Shown: positions 22,956-47,337, counted from the first letter of the stretch. The stretch is 64,000 bases of DNA from Sulfurovum sp. (GCA_002733215.1 NVUY01000016.1:9662-73661); one strand, 5' to 3'. Made by a program: numbers and translations. Notes: generated by a model from the sequence alone, not told the origin.

Positions 22956-23726
22956 ATGGCAAGAAGACCACGCATAGAACTAGCAGGAACCTATCACCTC
23001 ATCAATAGAGGTGTAGCACAGATGCACATCTTCAAGGAACCCTCTGATTATGAGTACTTTGAAGAACTCATGTGCTTTTATGCTAAAAGCTTTGGTATCA
23101 CTATACATAACTATTGTCTGATGGATAACCACTACCATCTACTCATAGAGATACAATCTCCTAACCTCTCAAAATTCATGAGACAAGTAAATATGAACTA
23201 CTCCATATACTTTAACAAAAAATATAAAAGAGTAGGGCATCTGTGGCAGGGACGCTTTAAATCATGGTATGTCACAGATGAGGCATACCTCTATACACTT
23301 ATGTGCTACATAGAACAAAACCCACTTAAAGCCAATATGGTTAAAAATATAGAAGAGTACCCTTACAGTTCTTACCACTACTTCCTTAACTATAAAGAGA
23401 TACCTGAGTGCTTAAAGAACTCGTGGATAACCCAAAACTATCATGATGACAAAGCAGCCATAGAGGCATTTTTAACAAACCCTGTAGATAGCACACAGCT
23501 GCAAGAATTAAGGAGAGCTTCATCCCTTGTAGAAGCTCCAAATATTGACTGCAAACCAAAAGAAGAAGACCTCAAAAAGCTTTTTAAAAATATTGCAGAT
23601 ATAAAAGAGCGAAACAATCAAATACTCAAAGCCATAAAAAAAGGCTATTCTCAGCATAGGATTGCCAAAGTATTGGGTATATCACAACCTGCGGTGCATG
23701 GGGTGGTGAAGAGGGGTAGTAAATGA
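22956..23726 (+). CDS. REP-associated tyrosine transposase (RAYT), with C-terminal HTH
   Basis: A 256-residue Y1 transposase of the RAYT/TnpREP type. It begins RPRIELAGTYHLINRG. The HUH-type metal site is His59-Tyr60-His61 (MDNHYHLLIE) and the probable catalytic Tyr118 lies in CYIEQNPLKANMV. A C-terminal helix-turn-helix (about 230-252, SQHRIAKVLGISQPAVHGVV) is an added DNA-binding module. RAYTs bind and cut single-stranded REP hairpins and are domesticated rather than freely mobile. AAGGAGT precedes the start. A 14-bp perfect REP hairpin lies 33 bp downstream and an IS200 relic lies upstream. The window contains many REP-like palindromes that could be its targets. Confidence 0.9.
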   Translation: MARRPRIELAGTYHLINRGVAQMHIFKEPSDYEYFEELMCFYAKSFGITIHNYCLMDNHYHLLIEIQSPNLSKFMRQVNMNYSIYFNKKYKRVGHLWQGRFKSWYVTDEAYLYTLMCYIEQNPLKANMVKNIEEYPYSSYHYFLNYKEIPECLKNSWITQNYHDDKAAIEAFLTNPVDSTQLQELRRASSLVEAPNIDCKPKEEDLKKLFKNIADIKERNNQILKAIKKGYSQHRIAKVLGISQPAVHGVVKRGSK

Positions 23727-26757: not shown

Positions 26758-26901
26758 AAAAACCTCTTTTTTGACATTTTTTTGACAATTTTAGTTTATA
26801 CTGTCAATAGTGGTTGATTTGATAAGTTAACCAGATTTTAGAAATACTGTTTTATAAGAAACAAAGTACTAAAGCAGTATAATAAAATAGAATAAGTAAT
26901 G

Positions 26902-26991
26902 TATACTATAGTTTATTTGAAAAAGCCAAACTTGTTGTGAAGCAAGGACGGAAAGTTATGGGTCTCTTGTATGGAGATCGCCAAACTGCCA
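26902..26991 (+). ncRNA. Cyclic-di-GMP-I (GEMM) type riboswitch, copy 1
   Basis: A -10 box (TATACT, 26902-26907) leads into GCCAAAC, a stem CTTGTT-GTGA-AGCAAG (26931-26946) closed by a GNRA tetraloop, then GGACGGAAAGTTATGGGTCT, a second stem GTCTC/GAGAT and the 3' end CGCCAAACTGCC. These elements follow the order of the GEMM aptamer. The selectivity base before CYAAAC is G, as in c-di-GMP-binding members, whereas cGAMP-binding relatives have A. A second copy at 47142-47210 has a covarying hairpin. Downstream lies the PilJ-domain operon (GTG 27083). The closing helix P1 is not clear by eye. Confidence 0.75.
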
Positions 26992-27082
26992 GTAGAGTTT
27001 ATGTACTCTCTGATTCTGTTTATTTTGACTTTTTTATGGATTTTAGTGTGTTTACTATACACTAAGTATAAAGGAGTTTATA

Positions 27083-27862
27083 GTGTCTCGTTTTATGAAA
27101 AAAGCAATAAAAATTGTACTTCTCCCCTCTCTTATTTCCAGTTTTGCATTTGCAATTGAAATAAAAAATCTTTCAGTAGCAGTAGATGTAGCGGGGAAAC
27201 AAAGAATGTTTACACAGCGCATGTTAAAAGATTATGCAATGGTGGGGTTGGAAAATAATTTTGGAAATCCGGGAGAAGATCTTAAGAAAATCATGGGATC
27301 ATTTGATAAGCATTTGGCATCACTTAGAAAGTTCAATACTGACCCTGCAACCGAAGAGAGTTTGGCAAAAGTCAGAGTACTTTGGGATCCTATTCAGTTG
27401 GCACTGAATGAACCGCCAAGTAAAGAAAAAGCAGGAAAAATGCAAGAAGATCTGGAGGCACTGCTTAAACAGTCCAATGAAGCAGTTGCTCTCTTCGCCA
27501 AGCAGACAGGAAAAGCTTCCGGGGAAATCATTAACATATCCGGAAGACAGAGAATGCTCTCTCAAAGAATGGCAAGTCTCTATATGTTAAAAGTCTGGGG
27601 GATAAATGATCCTCAATTTACAATAAAGATGACTAAGGCGATGGACTTGTATAGAACATCTCTCGACAAGCTTAAGAAGTCAGATATGAGCACACCTGAA
27701 ATTACAATACTCTTAAATAAATCAGGAAAAGCATTCAGATTCTTTGAAGTCATGAATAAATCAAGTTCGAAATTTATCCCTACACTTATTTACAAAAAAT
27801 CAAATGATATGTTAAAAGATATGAACACGGCAACAGGACTCTATGCCGCACAAGAAAAGTAG
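27083..27862 (+). CDS. Exported PilJ/NarX-type P-box protein 1
   Basis: A 259-residue protein: signal peptide (1-25, SFAFAIE), then two repeats of a four-helix sensor fold, each led by a P-box-like motif (DVAGKQRMFTQRMLKDY at 35-51 and ISGRQRMLSQRMASLY at about 152-167). The motif is that of PilJ and NarX/NarQ periplasmic domains, where the conserved Arg binds nitrate or nitrite. There is no TM helix after the signal and no output domain, so this is a soluble periplasmic sensor or binding protein. Start: GTG with AAGGAG 6 bases before it. First of five genes behind the riboswitch. Confidence 0.85.
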   Translation: MSRFMKKAIKIVLLPSLISSFAFAIEIKNLSVAVDVAGKQRMFTQRMLKDYAMVGLENNFGNPGEDLKKIMGSFDKHLASLRKFNTDPATEESLAKVRVLWDPIQLALNEPPSKEKAGKMQEDLEALLKQSNEAVALFAKQTGKASGEIINISGRQRMLSQRMASLYMLKVWGINDPQFTIKMTKAMDLYRTSLDKLKKSDMSTPEITILLNKSGKAFRFFEVMNKSSSKFIPTLIYKKSNDMLKDMNTATGLYAAQEK

Positions 27863-27871
27863 GAAGACAGA

Positions 27872-28648
27872 TTGATAGTAAAAAAAATAAAAATGAGTTT
27901 GGCTACAATTTTGATACTTGCCACTTCGGCCTCAGCAATAGAAATAACCAGCCCTACGCAAGCAGTTGACATAGCCGGAAAACAAAGAATGTTTACGCAG
28001 CGTATGTTAAAAGATTATGCAATGGTGGGAATGGGGAATACTTTTGGGAAGCCTGGAGAAGATCTCAAAAAAATATCTGCTGACTTTCAAGACCATATGG
28101 AATCTCTTGCAGCCTACACCAGGAGTGATGAGGTTAAAAAGAGTATAGAAAAAATTGAAGCTCTTTGGACTCCACTCAAGCAGATACTCTTAGAAACACC
28201 AAGTAAAGAGAAGGTTGGAAAACTTCAAGTAGATCTGGATGACCTTTTAAAAGCGACAGATGAGACTACAAAACTTTTTGCCAAAGAGTCAGGAACGGCG
28301 TCTGGAGAAACAGTAAATAAAGCAGGACGACAGAGAATGCTTTCCCAGAGAATGGCCAGCCTGTATATGTTGAAAGTTTGGGAAGTAGAAGACCCTCAGT
28401 TTAAAACGAAGTTAGAAGATGCAATGAAGCTTTTTAAAACTTCATTGGATGAATTGGAAAAGTCAAATTTAAATACAGAAGAGATCAAAATACTTTTAGC
28501 AAAAGTCAAGAGATCGTTTATGTTTTTTGAGATGATGAGTAAATCCAAATCAAAATTTGTTCCAACACTGATATACAAGAAATCGAATGATATTCTTGTA
28601 AATATGAATAGTGCAACACAGAAATATGTTGCTTTAGAAAGCAAATAA
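27872..28648 (+). CDS. Exported PilJ/NarX-type P-box protein 2
   Basis: 258 residues, a close paralogue of the preceding protein: the same signal peptide plan (1-22, SASAIE), DIAGKQRMFTQRMLKDYAMVG at 34-54 and KAGRQRMLSQRMASLYMLKVW at about 150-170, and the same C-terminal KFVPTLIYKKSND segment. Conservation is highest around the two P-boxes and at the C-terminus, which points to recent tandem duplication with preserved function. The start is a TTG 9 bp after the previous stop with GGAAG upstream. No output domain. Probably works with the hybrid kinase at 30344. Confidence 0.85.
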   Translation: MIVKKIKMSLATILILATSASAIEITSPTQAVDIAGKQRMFTQRMLKDYAMVGMGNTFGKPGEDLKKISADFQDHMESLAAYTRSDEVKKSIEKIEALWTPLKQILLETPSKEKVGKLQVDLDDLLKATDETTKLFAKESGTASGETVNKAGRQRMLSQRMASLYMLKVWEVEDPQFKTKLEDAMKLFKTSLDELEKSNLNTEEIKILLAKVKRSFMFFEMMSKSKSKFVPTLIYKKSNDILVNMNSATQKYVALESK

Positions 28649-28660
28649 AAGGAAGACAGG

Positions 28661-29485
28661 ATGAGAAATAAAATGATTAAGAAGATAAGTATGGCAGTAG
28701 TGACAGTATTTGTATTGTCAGAGGTTTCTATAGCAGAAGAAGTAAATACAGCAGCTGCTGCTTCATCTGATCCGGTCGTGATATCTGATACCGTAAAATT
28801 GATAGATATGGCAGGTAAGCAAAGAATGCTTTCTCAACGTATCGCTAAAGATTATCTTTATGCCGGTAAAAAGATCGCAGCAGCAAAAGCGAATAAACAG
28901 CTGAAAAATTCTCTTGCTGAACTTATGGAATCTCATAAAGTACTTGTGAAGTCTATTAATGATCCTGATATTAAAAATCTTCTTGCTTTTGTCGAGATGA
29001 GTACGGAAGATTTTGAATCAACAGCAAATGAAGCGTTTACACTTGACAATGCTCAATTGGTTATAGATTTAAGTGAGTCTATGCTGGAAGGTAGTCAATA
29101 TGTAGTTGATTCATTAAAAGAGACGGTTGAGATACAAGAGTCTAAAATCGTAGGAAAAGCCGGTAAGCAGCGTATGCTTGCACAGCGTATCGCTAAATAT
29201 TATATTGCATACCAAGCCGGGATTAAAGATAAAAATACTATTGATCAGATGAAAGCAGCAGTAGCAACATTTAGTGAATCTCACGCAGCACTTATGTCGA
29301 ACGCAGCAAATACACCGGAGATCAACAGGAAACTTAATGAAATAGACAGACTTTGGAAAATCGTATATAAATTTTATCTCAATATTGAAAAGGGTGGATT
29401 GCCATTAATTGTTTTCAATACTACGGACAATATTACTAAAAAGATGAATCAGATCACAGGGCTTTATGTGGAGCTATATAAATAA
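28661..29485 (+). CDS. Exported PilJ/NarX-type P-box protein 3
   Basis: 274 residues, more divergent paralogue. Signal peptide 1-26 (VSIAEE), then an Ala/Ser-rich linker and two P-box repeats: DMAGKQRMLSQRIAKDYL near residue 48 and KAGKQRMLAQRIAKYYI near 166. The two motifs are more alike here than in proteins 1 and 2, exposing the internal duplication. The C-terminus keeps the (I/F)NTTDNITKKMNQ helix, matching KSNDML in the others. It lies 12 bp after gene 2, with a GGAAGACAGG ribosome site like gene 2. Confidence 0.85.
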   Translation: MRNKMIKKISMAVVTVFVLSEVSIAEEVNTAAAASSDPVVISDTVKLIDMAGKQRMLSQRIAKDYLYAGKKIAAAKANKQLKNSLAELMESHKVLVKSINDPDIKNLLAFVEMSTEDFESTANEAFTLDNAQLVIDLSESMLEGSQYVVDSLKETVEIQESKIVGKAGKQRMLAQRIAKYYIAYQAGIKDKNTIDQMKAAVATFSESHAALMSNAANTPEINRKLNEIDRLWKIVYKFYLNIEKGGLPLIVFNTTDNITKKMNQITGLYVELYK

Positions 29486-29491
29486 GGATCA

Positions 29492-30331
29492 ATGATGAAG
29501 AAAATATTTTATATGTTTTTCCTCTTATGGGGAGTAGTACTTTGTGCTGAGACCAAAGTTGAGAAAAAAGAGACAAATGCAACAATACCTGTAGTCGAGA
29601 AGGTAGAAGTAGAAGTAAAAAAGGCTATCGCCGCAACGAGAGGGGATATTAAGGTTATAGAGGCTTCCGAAAATATTAGATACCTCAGTCAAAAGATGGT
29701 TAAAGATTACCTTTTTTTCTATAAGCATCAAAATAAAGTGGAAGTAAAGCGGGGACTGGAGAGAGCACTGCTTAAGTTGAATGATAACTTTAGGATCATT
29801 GCTACGACGACAAAAGATACGGATACAAAAGATGTCCTCGAATTTCTTGCGTACAGTAAAGACCAGATCGAACAAATATTCAATGAAAAAGCAGATGAAG
29901 AAAGAGTAGCCTTAATGCTTGATTACAGTGAAACACTTCTTGAAGGAGCCGACTCTATTTCAAATGCACACAAGTATGATTTTTCCGATGAAGAAAAAAT
30001 GCTGATGGTGACAAAAGAGATGGAATATCTTTTGGAAAGAGTTACAAAATATTATATGGCAATAAATGTAGGGTTTGACAGTACTACAAATAAAGATCAG
30101 ATGCTAGAGTCAATATCTGATCTTGAAAAAAATATTGCAGAGATAAATAGATATACGTATCCTGCTGAACTCCAGAAGGCACAGGTAAAAATGAATGAGT
30201 CCTGGAAGGCAAACAAGCGTTTTTTTGATCAGTCAGAAACTCTGTTTATCCCAAAACTTATATTTATTTCAGTTGATTATCTGGAAGACGTTGTTCTCCA
30301 GATAGCACTTTATCACAGTAAAAACCAATAA
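29492..30331 (+). CDS. Exported PilJ-like protein 4 with degenerate P-boxes
   Basis: 279 residues with a signal peptide (1-19, VVLCAET) and a charged linker. It aligns with protein 3 by pattern but the P-boxes have decayed: EASENIRYLSQKMVKDYLF replaces AGKQRMLSQRIAKDYL, and TKEMEYLLERVTKYYM replaces the second. The ligand-binding Arg is retained in the first motif in a different context (NIRYLSQ) and appears lost in the second. It may have become a structural partner or a sensor for another ligand. It lies 6 bp after gene 3 and 12 bp before the kinase. Confidence 0.75.
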   Translation: MMKKIFYMFFLLWGVVLCAETKVEKKETNATIPVVEKVEVEVKKAIAATRGDIKVIEASENIRYLSQKMVKDYLFFYKHQNKVEVKRGLERALLKLNDNFRIIATTTKDTDTKDVLEFLAYSKDQIEQIFNEKADEERVALMLDYSETLLEGADSISNAHKYDFSDEEKMLMVTKEMEYLLERVTKYYMAINVGFDSTTNKDQMLESISDLEKNIAEINRYTYPAELQKAQVKMNESWKANKRFFDQSETLFIPKLIFISVDYLEDVVLQIALYHSKNQ

Positions 30332-30343
30332 GAAGGATCGAAA

Positions 30344-33300
30344 ATGAAAATTATAAATAATAAAAATATCTTTAACCTTCTTATCGTTGTGGTTATGGCT
30401 GTGTTGGCATTCTTTTCTTATTATACTTATATGTCTTATGTGGAGTATGATTCTTCACGAAACAGTACACAAAGTACATATTTTGTTGAAGAGATAGATA
30501 ATGTTCTTGATAGGATAGCAAAAGAGAGACTTTACAGTGCTATTTATATGGGAAGAGAAGGAAAGACGGGATTTGACAAAGTAAAAGAAGCAAGAATGGC
30601 TGTTGATAGCGCTATTATTGAATTAAATACTTATATAAATGCCAATCATAAATTTAAAACATACAGTAAAAGGCTAACTGCTGTTTCGAAAAATTTGAAG
30701 CATGCAAGAACAAAAGTTGATACTTTAAGTTCGGACTATAAGAATATTTTCTTTGAGATTTATCATGATCAAATTTTTGAATCACTTGCGGGAGCCATGA
30801 GAATAGTATCATTGCAAGATGCATCTGCAGATATGAAGAGTTATTTATCCACTTATACTAGTTTTACGAAGCTTAAAGAGAATACTGAGCTTGAGAATAC
30901 AGGGATATTCTTTGTCTTAAGCGGTTCACGAAAAATGACTAATGAAGACCTGATGCAATGGGATGCTCTTTTAGTGAATGATACACTTCCTGAGTTTACT
31001 GCCTTGGGCAATCAAGCTATTATATCGAAACTCAATGCACTGCTTACACCGGAAGAGTTTAGCAAGATCGGTGCGAATGAACGTGTGCAAATTCTGTATG
31101 GTGCGCAGGCAGGAGAATACGCAGTTTCAACCAAAGAATGGCTCAGACAGATTGAAAAAAAGATGAACTATATTGCCTTGGCACAGAGTGTACTTAAGTC
31201 AACTATGGATAAACACACAGAGAGTAAAGTCTCACATAGTAAAGAAGTTATGACGGAATATGGGATAGGTACACTCTTTGCATTACTGCTGCTTCTTGTT
31301 TTATTTGTGATCTATTATAATATCAATAAAGACAAACAACTGTTTGAAGATACGTTAAAAGATATTGAAGCCGTACTTAACTCCGAACAGCAAAAAGAGT
31401 TGAAAATTTTGATCGATAACAGGGAAATAAATCAGATCTATAGATTTCTGACTGCAACGATCAAAGAGGCTAATCAGGCAAAAGACCTCTTTCTCGCAAA
31501 TATGTCTCATGAGATACGTACACCTCTGAATGGTATCGTTGGTTTTACACAACTGCTTAAAACTACTGAGGTTACAGCTGAGCAGGAAGAGTTTATTACG
31601 ATTATAGAGAATAGTTCTGATAATTTGTTAACTATTGTGAATGATATACTGGATCTCTCTAAGATCAAAGCCGATAAAATTGAATTGGAGAATATACCAT
31701 TTGATCCTATTGAGAAGTTTGAGTCAGCTATAGAATCTTATGGTGCGAGGGCAGCAGAGAAAGATATTGAACTGGGTGTCTATATTGATCCTGATCTGCC
31801 TGCTACACTTATGGGTGATCCTACTAAAATATCTCAGATTATCGTGAATCTTATATCCAATGCAATTAAATTTACACCTATGGCAGGAAATATAGACGTT
31901 TCCATAGAAAAGCTTTCTGAAACCAATGAGGATGTCACACTTAAGTTTGCAGTAGCCGATACAGGTATTGGTATTTCAGAGGAGCAGAAATCTAAAATAT
32001 TTGATGCCTTCTCTCAGGCTGATGTCAGTACAAGTAGAAAATTCGGAGGAACAGGATTAGGATTGGCTATTTCTGAAAAACTCGTTGCATTTATGGGAGG
32101 CAATCTGGATATAGAGAGTGAAGAAGATAACGGTTCAACTTTCTTCTTTACATTAAATCTGAATAAAGCAGAACAGAGTTTGCTAAGAGAGAAGGTAAAT
32201 ATGAGTGGTACGCATGTGGGATATATGGTTCCTGATATGAGTATTGAGCGGGCGAAGAATCCAAACCTTCAAGCGTATGTTGAGTATGTGGGTGCAGAAT
32301 TCACAGTTTACGAGGGAGATGATCTCCTGAGTATGAAAAAATCTTCTTTACCGGATATCTTATTTATCAATCATAGATATTGTAAAAGAGAAAATGAACT
32401 TGAAAAATATTTGAAGCTAGATACAAAGATCGTAGTGGTAACAACGGGTGAGCTAAAAGGAAAAATAGAAGCATTGGAAGATCAAATTGATAGAGTTTTT
32501 TATAAGCCTATCAACCTTAGTAAAACACTAAAATCTCTTAAAATTGTAAATGAAAATACAAATAAGAGTAAAACTCCTCAAGTTGAAATAAATAAAAGTA
32601 ATGAGAAATTTGAAGATATACATGCTTTGGTGGCAGAAGATAATAGTATCAATCAAAAATTAATTCAAAATGTATTAAATGGACTTGGTGTAGATGTGAC
32701 ACTTGTCGATAATGGGAAAGAGGCTTTGGAACTTCGTCAAAGAAATGAGTATGATATCATATTTATGGATATTCAAATGCCTGTGATGGGTGGTATTGAA
32801 GCAACGGGGAAGATTATGGAATATGAAACAACACATCGTAAACATCATGTTCCTATTGTTGCTGTTACTGCAAATGCCTTAGAAGGTGACAGAGAAAAAT
32901 ACATCAGTGAAGGTATGGATAATTATCTTTCAAAACCTATAGAACTTGATCAGATAAAATTACTGATAGAAGAGTATGTTTCTCATAAAATTGTCAAAGA
33001 TGAAAAAGAAACAATAGAAAATGTCAATACTCAAAACAGTGATAACACCATCAGAGTGAAAAAAGTAGAAGCAGTAAAAACGACCGAAGTTAAAAAAGTT
33101 GTAGAGCAAAAAAGAAGATCTGATGTCTTAGTCTATCACTCTATACCATTAATAGCAAATCTTTATGGAAGTATATTGAAAAACTTGGACTATGATAAGG
33201 ATATTGTTACTGATGAAGAAGTATTTTTAGATAGACTGGATGATACAGAATATACATTTGTGTTATATGAGGCAGTATCGTTTGCAGAGATGCCATGTAT

Positions 33301-33445
33301 GATCGTTGACCTTATTAAAGACAGTGGGGCTAAACCTTTTGCATTGATACATAATTTATTAGGGAAGGATAAATCATGTTGTGCTACATTAGCAGAAAAA
33401 GCGAGTATTGCTGAAATAAGAAAAAAATTTCAAATAGATCAATAG
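30344..33445 (+). CDS. NIT-domain hybrid sensor histidine kinase
   Basis: A 1033-residue membrane kinase. TM1 at about 10-30, a periplasmic NIT-type domain (about 45-300; signature RIAKERLYSAIYMGREGKTGFDKV), TM2 at about 305-325. HisKA follows with His389 (LFLANMSHEIRTPLNG) and a HATPase with DTGIGISEEQ and GGTGLGLAISEKLV. Then comes a degenerate receiver (about 610-735), a true receiver with Asp809 (IIFMDIQMPVMGG) and Lys in LSKPIEL, a linker and a second degenerate receiver-like tail (about 925-1033). No HPt domain is present, so phosphotransfer to an output must be in trans. NIT domains sense nitrate or nitrite. Its end overlaps truA by 7 bp. Confidence 0.9.
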   Translation: MKIINNKNIFNLLIVVVMAVLAFFSYYTYMSYVEYDSSRNSTQSTYFVEEIDNVLDRIAKERLYSAIYMGREGKTGFDKVKEARMAVDSAIIELNTYINANHKFKTYSKRLTAVSKNLKHARTKVDTLSSDYKNIFFEIYHDQIFESLAGAMRIVSLQDASADMKSYLSTYTSFTKLKENTELENTGIFFVLSGSRKMTNEDLMQWDALLVNDTLPEFTALGNQAIISKLNALLTPEEFSKIGANERVQILYGAQAGEYAVSTKEWLRQIEKKMNYIALAQSVLKSTMDKHTESKVSHSKEVMTEYGIGTLFALLLLLVLFVIYYNINKDKQLFEDTLKDIEAVLNSEQQKELKILIDNREINQIYRFLTATIKEANQAKDLFLANMSHEIRTPLNGIVGFTQLLKTTEVTAEQEEFITIIENSSDNLLTIVNDILDLSKIKADKIELENIPFDPIEKFESAIESYGARAAEKDIELGVYIDPDLPATLMGDPTKISQIIVNLISNAIKFTPMAGNIDVSIEKLSETNEDVTLKFAVADTGIGISEEQKSKIFDAFSQADVSTSRKFGGTGLGLAISEKLVAFMGGNLDIESEEDNGSTFFFTLNLNKAEQSLLREKVNMSGTHVGYMVPDMSIERAKNPNLQAYVEYVGAEFTVYEGDDLLSMKKSSLPDILFINHRYCKRENELEKYLKLDTKIVVVTTGELKGKIEALEDQIDRVFYKPINLSKTLKSLKIVNENTNKSKTPQVEINKSNEKFEDIHALVAEDNSINQKLIQNVLNGLGVDVTLVDNGKEALELRQRNEYDIIFMDIQMPVMGGIEATGKIMEYETTHRKHHVPIVAVTANALEGDREKYISEGMDNYLSKPIELDQIKLLIEEYVSHKIVKDEKETIENVNTQNSDNTIRVKKVEAVKTTEVKKVVEQKRRSDVLVYHSIPLIANLYGSILKNLDYDKDIVTDEEVFLDRLDDTEYTFVLYEAVSFAEMPCMIVDLIKDSGAKPFALIHNLLGKDKSCCATLAEKASIAEIRKKFQIDQ

Positions 33446-47080: not shown

Positions 47081-47141
47081 TTCTTCTCCACAAGATTGTA
47101 AATTATAGTAAAGTTTATGGACAGAAAAGGTAGTAATATCT

Positions 47142-47210
47142 TCTGCAGCTTGGCAATCTACTAGAGACCCATAACTTTCTGTCCTCACTTCACAGTGAGT
47201 TTAGCCTGTT
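47142..47210 (-). ncRNA. Cyclic-di-GMP-I (GEMM) type riboswitch, copy 2
   Basis: On the minus strand: GGCTAAAC, stem CTCACT-GTGA-AGTGAG (47184-47199), GGACAGAAAGTTATGGGTCT, a short second stem and TTGCCAAGCTGC. Compared with copy 1 the core is nearly identical, while the hairpin has changed on both sides (CTTGTT/AGCAAG becomes CTCACT/AGTGAG) with pairing kept. The selectivity base is G. Downstream, TTTCTGTCC and CCATAAACTTT can pair with the aptamer core GGACAGAAAGTTATGG (the second with one bulge), a plausible switching element 30-60 bases before the PAS start codon. Confidence 0.8.
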
Positions 47211-47337
47211 TGATAACTATCCAATATAGTATCAGTGTATTGCTTATATGGACATAATACTTTAGGTTATAGTAGTTATTTAATCATATTTTGGACAGAG
47301 TTTGCTACAATAACAGAATTATGATAAAGGGGTATCT

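Follow-up and report, generated by a model that had tools for sequence, protein, structure and literature searches.

A conserved and apparently undescribed sensory operon of Campylobacterota combining secreted PilJ-type proteins, a NIT-domain hybrid kinase and, in some species, a c-di-GMP-I riboswitch

Kinases paired with a periplasmic binding protein are known from the TorT-TorS, LuxP-LuxQ and XylFII-LytS systems. For nitrate-binding PilJ domains, a study of the receptor McpN defined a signature, the N-box, with the pattern [IVL]-[ND]-x-A-G-x-Q-R-M-L-[ST]-Q (PMC6381276), and in the NIT domain of NasR the pocket residues are E175/R176, of which R176 is predicted to hold nitrate. Here, we describe a five-gene operon in a 64,000-nucleotide stretch of DNA from Sulfurovum sp. 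(GCA_002733215.1 NVUY01000016.1:9662-73661; hereafter the window, with positions counted from its first letter), in which a cyclic di-GMP (c-di-GMP)-I riboswitch of the GEMM-I type precedes genes for four exported PilJ-related proteins and a NIT-domain hybrid histidine kinase. In this gene set, which hydrothermal-vent relatives of Sulfurovum share, the nitrate-recognising part seems to have moved from the membrane kinase into secreted helper proteins, which would be an apparently new design for a two-component sensor. Our literature search found no description of this operon type under GEMM-I control, and in the open-access literature no paper joining PilJ or a c-di-GMP riboswitch with Sulfurovum was found; the operon is a real, conserved sensory module that has apparently not been described. 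Its features are as follows:

26900-26907, + strand: extended -10-like element TGTATACT just 5' of the aptamer, a possible promoter read by eye
26916-26994, + strand: c-di-GMP-I (GEMM-I) aptamer, with the G20-equivalent and a GNRA-type loop (GUGA) retained
27027-27078, + strand: hairpin sequestering the Shine-Dalgarno sequence AAAGGAG (27070-27076), the probable translational expression platform
27083-27862, + strand: PilJ1, exported twin-PilJ protein with GxQRM in both repeats and a predicted NIT-like two-bundle fold
27872-28648, + strand: PilJ2, exported twin-PilJ protein, a PilJ1 paralogue (59% identity) with an exact N-box in repeat 2
28661-29485, + strand: PilJ3, exported twin-PilJ protein, the best-conserved member, with an exact N-box in repeat 1
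29492-30331, + strand: PilJ4, exported degenerate twin-PilJ protein that has lost the N-box, the proposed kinase adaptor
30344-33445, + strand: NIT hybrid histidine kinase of 1033 amino acids with two transmembrane segments; ectodomain at residues ~32-300, HisKA at 379-443, HATPase at 491-607 and REC at 762-875, followed by a variable C-terminus

The layout agrees with an earlier note on this DNA, which had described five consecutive genes with short gaps, the last encoding a 1033-residue kinase with a NIT domain: the open reading frames (27083-33445, + strand) are spaced by 9, 12, 6 and 12 bp, and Pfam assigns NIT, HisKA, HATPase and REC domains to the fifth product. A search of the window's own genome with the PilJ profile placed all PilJ-family matches within the operon. 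Because gene order and riboswitch recur in other species, the five-gene block behind the riboswitch is confirmed as real and far above chance. A genome scan with one genome per species yielded 79 loci, 78 of which carry the titles of Campylobacterota lineages or are unclassified; the exception (L103) is a Sedimenticola metagenome-assembled genome (MAG). MAGs bearing the name Sulfurovum are the closest relatives. The search for conserved synteny that the note had proposed gave a positive answer, since of 81 occurrences of PilJ3, 66 were contiguous with PilJ4 and the effector gene on the same strand; 59 had PilJ1/2 immediately upstream, and median gaps within the conserved block were 10-12 bp. 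The block is therefore a conserved Campylobacterota module. In an even sample of the phylum, the PilJ3 profile matched 21 of 397 genomes at 1e-10, several of these being weak matches to longer proteins. Common flanks in Sulfurovum are EEP/HemJ/DUF2231 on one side and TruA/LptG/UppS on the other, and at one locus (L022:1898-15133) the whole five-gene operon is doubled in tandem. The Sedimenticola MAG carries a PilJ2-PilJ3 pair (L103:7023-8693) with neither PilJ4 nor kinase, a few kb from GroEL/GroES-like genes; this may be a sensor pair that works on its own or the product of lateral transfer.

PilJ1, PilJ2 and PilJ3 each have a Sec-type signal peptide and no second strongly hydrophobic segment. 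All three pass the gathering score of PF13675 (PilJ; 69-73 bits against a cut-off of 26.6), and in each the family matches two stretches (E 1e-19 to 1e-20). When the published McpN pattern (PMC6381276) was run over PilJ1/2, PilJ3, PilJ4 and the kinase ectodomains, the exact N-box was found in 73 of 84 PilJ3 and 35 of 86 PilJ1/2 proteins, and GxQRM was present in both repeats of 77 of the 86 PilJ1/2 proteins. The window copies of PilJ2 and PilJ3 have the exact N-box, and the ligand motif is among the best-conserved portions of PilJ1-3. The best sequence match of the PilJ1/2 profile in the PDB was McpN (6gcv, 1.9e-5), the nitrate-binding Arg of which aligned to the motif.

PilJ4 also carries a signal peptide. 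It gave no Pfam match, the PF13675 gathering score not being reached, and a PDB sequence search returned nothing meaningful. The window copy has neither P-box nor N-box, and the N-box is absent from the whole PilJ4 set (0/71). Profile-profile comparison with hhalign identified PilJ4 as a PilJ3 paralogue (99.8%), and at the sequence level it is a genuine but degenerate one. Two P-box motifs had been ascribed to all four exported proteins; PilJ1-3 do have intact twin motifs, but PilJ4 has lost the P-box signature, and therefore three proteins, not four, carry the ligand motif.

The kinase ectodomain passes PF08376 (NIT) with 54.8 bits against a cut-off of 24.9, and a PDB sequence search with it returned nothing meaningful. 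No N-box was found in true kinase ectodomains; the lone counted case, in L041, is a copy of PilJ3. The kinase ectodomains compared invariably keep the Glu of the second NIT motif, and the equivalent of NasR R176, assigned by motif, is Arg in 13 of 39 relatives and Asn185 in the window. Of the two pocket arginines expected of a nitrate receptor, the window ectodomain thus has the first and lacks the second. In L066, L072 and L073 the ectodomain lacks its first half and the PilJ genes are retained. These features suggest that the kinase NIT domain itself probably does not bind nitrate: of the NIT-type nitrate or nitrite binder that the ectodomain had been taken for, family and fold stand, but the ligand residues are largely lost.

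AlphaFold models of PilJ1 and the kinase ectodomain were confident, with a mean predicted local distance difference test score (pLDDT) of 93.3 and 92.9, respectively. The PilJ1 model matched NasR (4akk) over 229 residues, which is its whole mature length (Z 19.1, 3.3 Å; next row 12.0). McpN was matched by the first half of the model (Z 11.6, 1.9 Å). NasR 4akk was also the best match of the ectodomain model (Z 24.0, 269 residues, 4.2 Å; next row 14.2). Helical bundles generally score middling Z values, and we base the fold assignment on the margin over the next rows and on full-length coverage; Foldseek E-values for PilJ1 were weak (~0.1). Since PilJ1 matches the NasR NIT domain over its full length, the secreted protein is, according to the models, built like a NIT domain with two stacked four-helix bundles, in line with the four-helix P-box fold anticipated for these proteins. 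By analogy to the architecture of NasR and NarX, the two GxxR motifs of PilJ1 would face each other. Homology of the ectodomain to PilJ1-3 by sequence was considered and rejected, as profile-profile comparison gave none; the agreement is in fold only.

Across 45 complete loci, mean pairwise identity was 0.65 for both the catalytic domain of the kinase and PilJ3, 0.55 for PilJ1/2 and 0.45 for PilJ4, whereas the fast-evolving ectodomain reached only 0.25. In partial correlations that controlled for the remaining proteins, the divergence of PilJ4 correlated with that of the ectodomain at 0.62 (subsample range 0.54-0.70) and that of PilJ1/2 and PilJ3 at ~0, although these correlations share a single tree and may stem from rate or saturation. 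In ~10 loci (L048, L051, L054-L056, L058, L061, L062, L083, L088) the kinase is swapped for a short NIT-like protein of 512-600 amino acids without HisKA, a pseudo-kinase effector, whose C-terminal region looks, by eye, like a degenerate ATPase; Pfam analysis of one short effector (L023) gave a weak NIT match only. From kinase to pseudo-kinase, the identity of PilJ4 drops from 0.45 to 0.31, with PilJ3 and PilJ1/2 unchanged. As no other PilJ protein co-diverges with the ectodomain or shifts at the change to the pseudo-kinase, the comparison points to PilJ4 as the subunit matched to the effector. The proposed joint action of soluble proteins and kinase has thereby gained indirect backing from gene order, co-divergence and an N-box that the soluble proteins conserve and the kinase lacks.

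We lean towards reading the module as a multi-protein periplasmic sensor of nitrate or a nitrate-like anion, with secreted receptors, PilJ4 as adaptor and a ligand-blind NIT kinase. PilJ1/PilJ2 and PilJ3 would be secreted single-chain NIT-like receptors binding nitrate or a similar anion; as the two repeats would fold as stacked bundles, as modelled for PilJ1, both GxxR motifs could form a site in a single chain, and the ligand site may thus be made by the motifs of repeats 1 and 2. PilJ4, the putative coupling subunit, would dock on the kinase's periplasmic NIT domain; this domain appears to have kept its fold and largely given up its ligand residues. Contact that depends on the ligand would then alter what the hybrid kinase puts out through its phosphorelay.

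Besides the shared tree behind the divergence correlations, several observations weigh against this reading. Pseudomonas aeruginosa PilJ, with tandem PilJ domains lacking the N-box, showed no nitrate binding (PMC6381276), and the NIT receptor PA4520 of the same species showed no nitrate binding and no ligand shift. The window PilJ1 is a near match to the N-box, scoring 9/10 in each repeat with one deviating position per repeat. Three loci (L035, L102, L103) have PilJ1/2-PilJ3 without a kinase. NapA, present in 7/7 same-genus genomes with the module versus 5/11 without it (completeness >=90%), speaks for the nitrate reading, but the association is small (p ~0.025) and kinship is ignored in it.

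The P. aeruginosa results also speak for a module that works as proposed with another ligand, some other small anion or redox signal found in the periplasm of vent bacteria, such as nitrite, sulfur oxyanions or a peroxide-linked signal. In three lineages (L037:6166-7158, L067:1499-2509, L101:7770-8783) a gene for a CCP_MauG di-haem peroxidase lies within the operon or next to it, which makes a redox link not involving nitrate possible. We nevertheless consider a different ligand rather unlikely, given the exact nitrate N-box retained in 73 of the 84 PilJ3 proteins and the presence of NapA in every near-complete genome of the genus that carries the module.

It is more improbable still that the kinase senses directly via its own NIT domain and the PilJ proteins merely buffer or deliver the ligand, being co-transcribed for convenience. 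Such direct sensing would agree with the Pfam NIT match and NasR fold of the ectodomain, with the first-motif Arg retained in the window and with the PilJ1/2-PilJ3 loci that have no kinase. However, the ligand residues are unconserved, the soluble proteins persist in the three loci where half of the ectodomain is absent, and PilJ4 co-diverges with the ectodomain.

As for the leader, the GEMM RNA that the earlier note placed at the head of the operon proved to be a genuine GEMM-I by Rfam score and covariation. RF03167 (c-di-GMP-I-GGC; gathering score 59) matches 26916-26994 with 67.3 bits, and our own covariance model, built from five aptamers, scored the window aptamer at 98.5 bits. Among 14 distinct sequences, two-sided changes occurred in 10 of 21 pairs, with 94.9% of cells paired. 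Besides the window, 11 other loci, including Nitratifractor, have the aptamer ahead of the operon, with two copies in L026. G20A is the change that admits binding of cyclic GMP-AMP (cGAMP); since the G20-equivalent is kept in 15/15 aptamer sequences, c-di-GMP is favoured over cGAMP as the ligand. An altered ligand, as the Rfam label GGC might imply, was rejected because the 47-equivalent of the window aptamer, as we read it, is A rather than G, which we take to be the ordinary state of the c-di-GMP-I class.

The window leader hairpin has a minimum free energy of -20.1 kcal/mol (z -2.9); the leader fold was clearly better than shuffles in the window and in L018 (z -3.6), and not in L010. As the Shine-Dalgarno sequence was paired in all six leaders folded (the window and five others), the riboswitch probably controls translation of PilJ1. 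An intrinsic terminator as expression platform was unconvincing by eye, and the Shine-Dalgarno hairpin fits better. Pairing between the anti-Shine-Dalgarno strand and the 5' strand of the aptamer, considered as the basis of an OFF-switch, beat shuffles only in L018, L010 and L026 (fractions 0.007-0.05), the window giving a fraction of 0.20.

The further claim that c-di-GMP gates the whole module does not hold. The riboswitch was found in at least 9 of the 64 genome-scan loci with enough upstream sequence, and since this is a minority, it is an optional layer rather than the gate of the module. In these species it would probably set PilJ1 translation and so link the sensor to the surface or biofilm state. 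A wider reading, which we offer tentatively and hold to be somewhat short of probable, is that a NIT receptor kinase has outsourced nitrate sensing to secreted single-chain NIT-like receptors that arose by duplication, with the motif-less PilJ4 as their dedicated adaptor, adaptor and effector (kinase or pseudo-kinase) swapped together, the sensors kept constant and c-di-GMP setting the sensor level in some species.

The window's own genome (2.65 Mb) contains 20 GGDEF and 16 GEMM-I matches. Other GEMM-I riboswitches (L114-L125) precede genes for a lipoprotein and for LysM-NlpC/P60, GDSL lipase with LamG, Golvesin-C and rhodanese proteins, and two stand in tandem on contig C2. A second GEMM-I of the window (47141-47215, - strand) precedes the gene of a PAS-only protein (46628 to ~47080, - strand). 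A purely structural role of the four proteins, as an envelope assembly for surface or adhesion functions under c-di-GMP that the kinase watches and in which the P-box is a relic, is very improbable, for although several of these riboswitches precede exported or surface proteins, only a minority of the operon loci have one, and the ligand motif is among the best-conserved portions of PilJ1-3. A gene of the IS200-like (Y1) transposase family (22956-23726) lies a few kb upstream of the operon.

If the proposed sensor with secreted receptors is right, sensor domains of the P-box/NIT type can function as receptors that are secreted in free form, and bilobed binding proteins would have a modular counterpart. 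Vent Campylobacterota would also gain a nitrate-sensing system; a periplasmic nitrate reductase is common among them. The labour is apparently split between sensors, adaptor and an exchangeable effector, so that binding and pull-down assays could test the hypothesis directly.

Compared with known systems, the aptamer is like other c-di-GMP-I riboswitches in sequence, structure and covariation, with no difference in the aptamer. NarX/NarQ and McpN share the four-helix bundle with a GxxR P-box/N-box; their domain is part of a membrane receptor with the site between two subunits, whereas here it is secreted, duplicated within the chain and free of an output domain. The NIT domain of NasR (4akk) has the two-bundle fold of the PilJ1 model and the kinase ectodomain, but in NasR a single chain combines the antiterminator with a nitrate pocket of its own, whereas ligand site and output here appear divided among proteins. 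TorT-TorS, LuxP-LuxQ and XylFII-LytS, of which structures of TorS-TorT and XylFII-LytS also turned up in the structural comparisons, resemble the module in having a soluble periplasmic partner that binds the ligand and docks on the ectodomain, as we propose here; in those systems a single partner has a different fold, whereas in this module the partners are three or four paralogues, all helical P-box proteins folded like the ectodomain itself.

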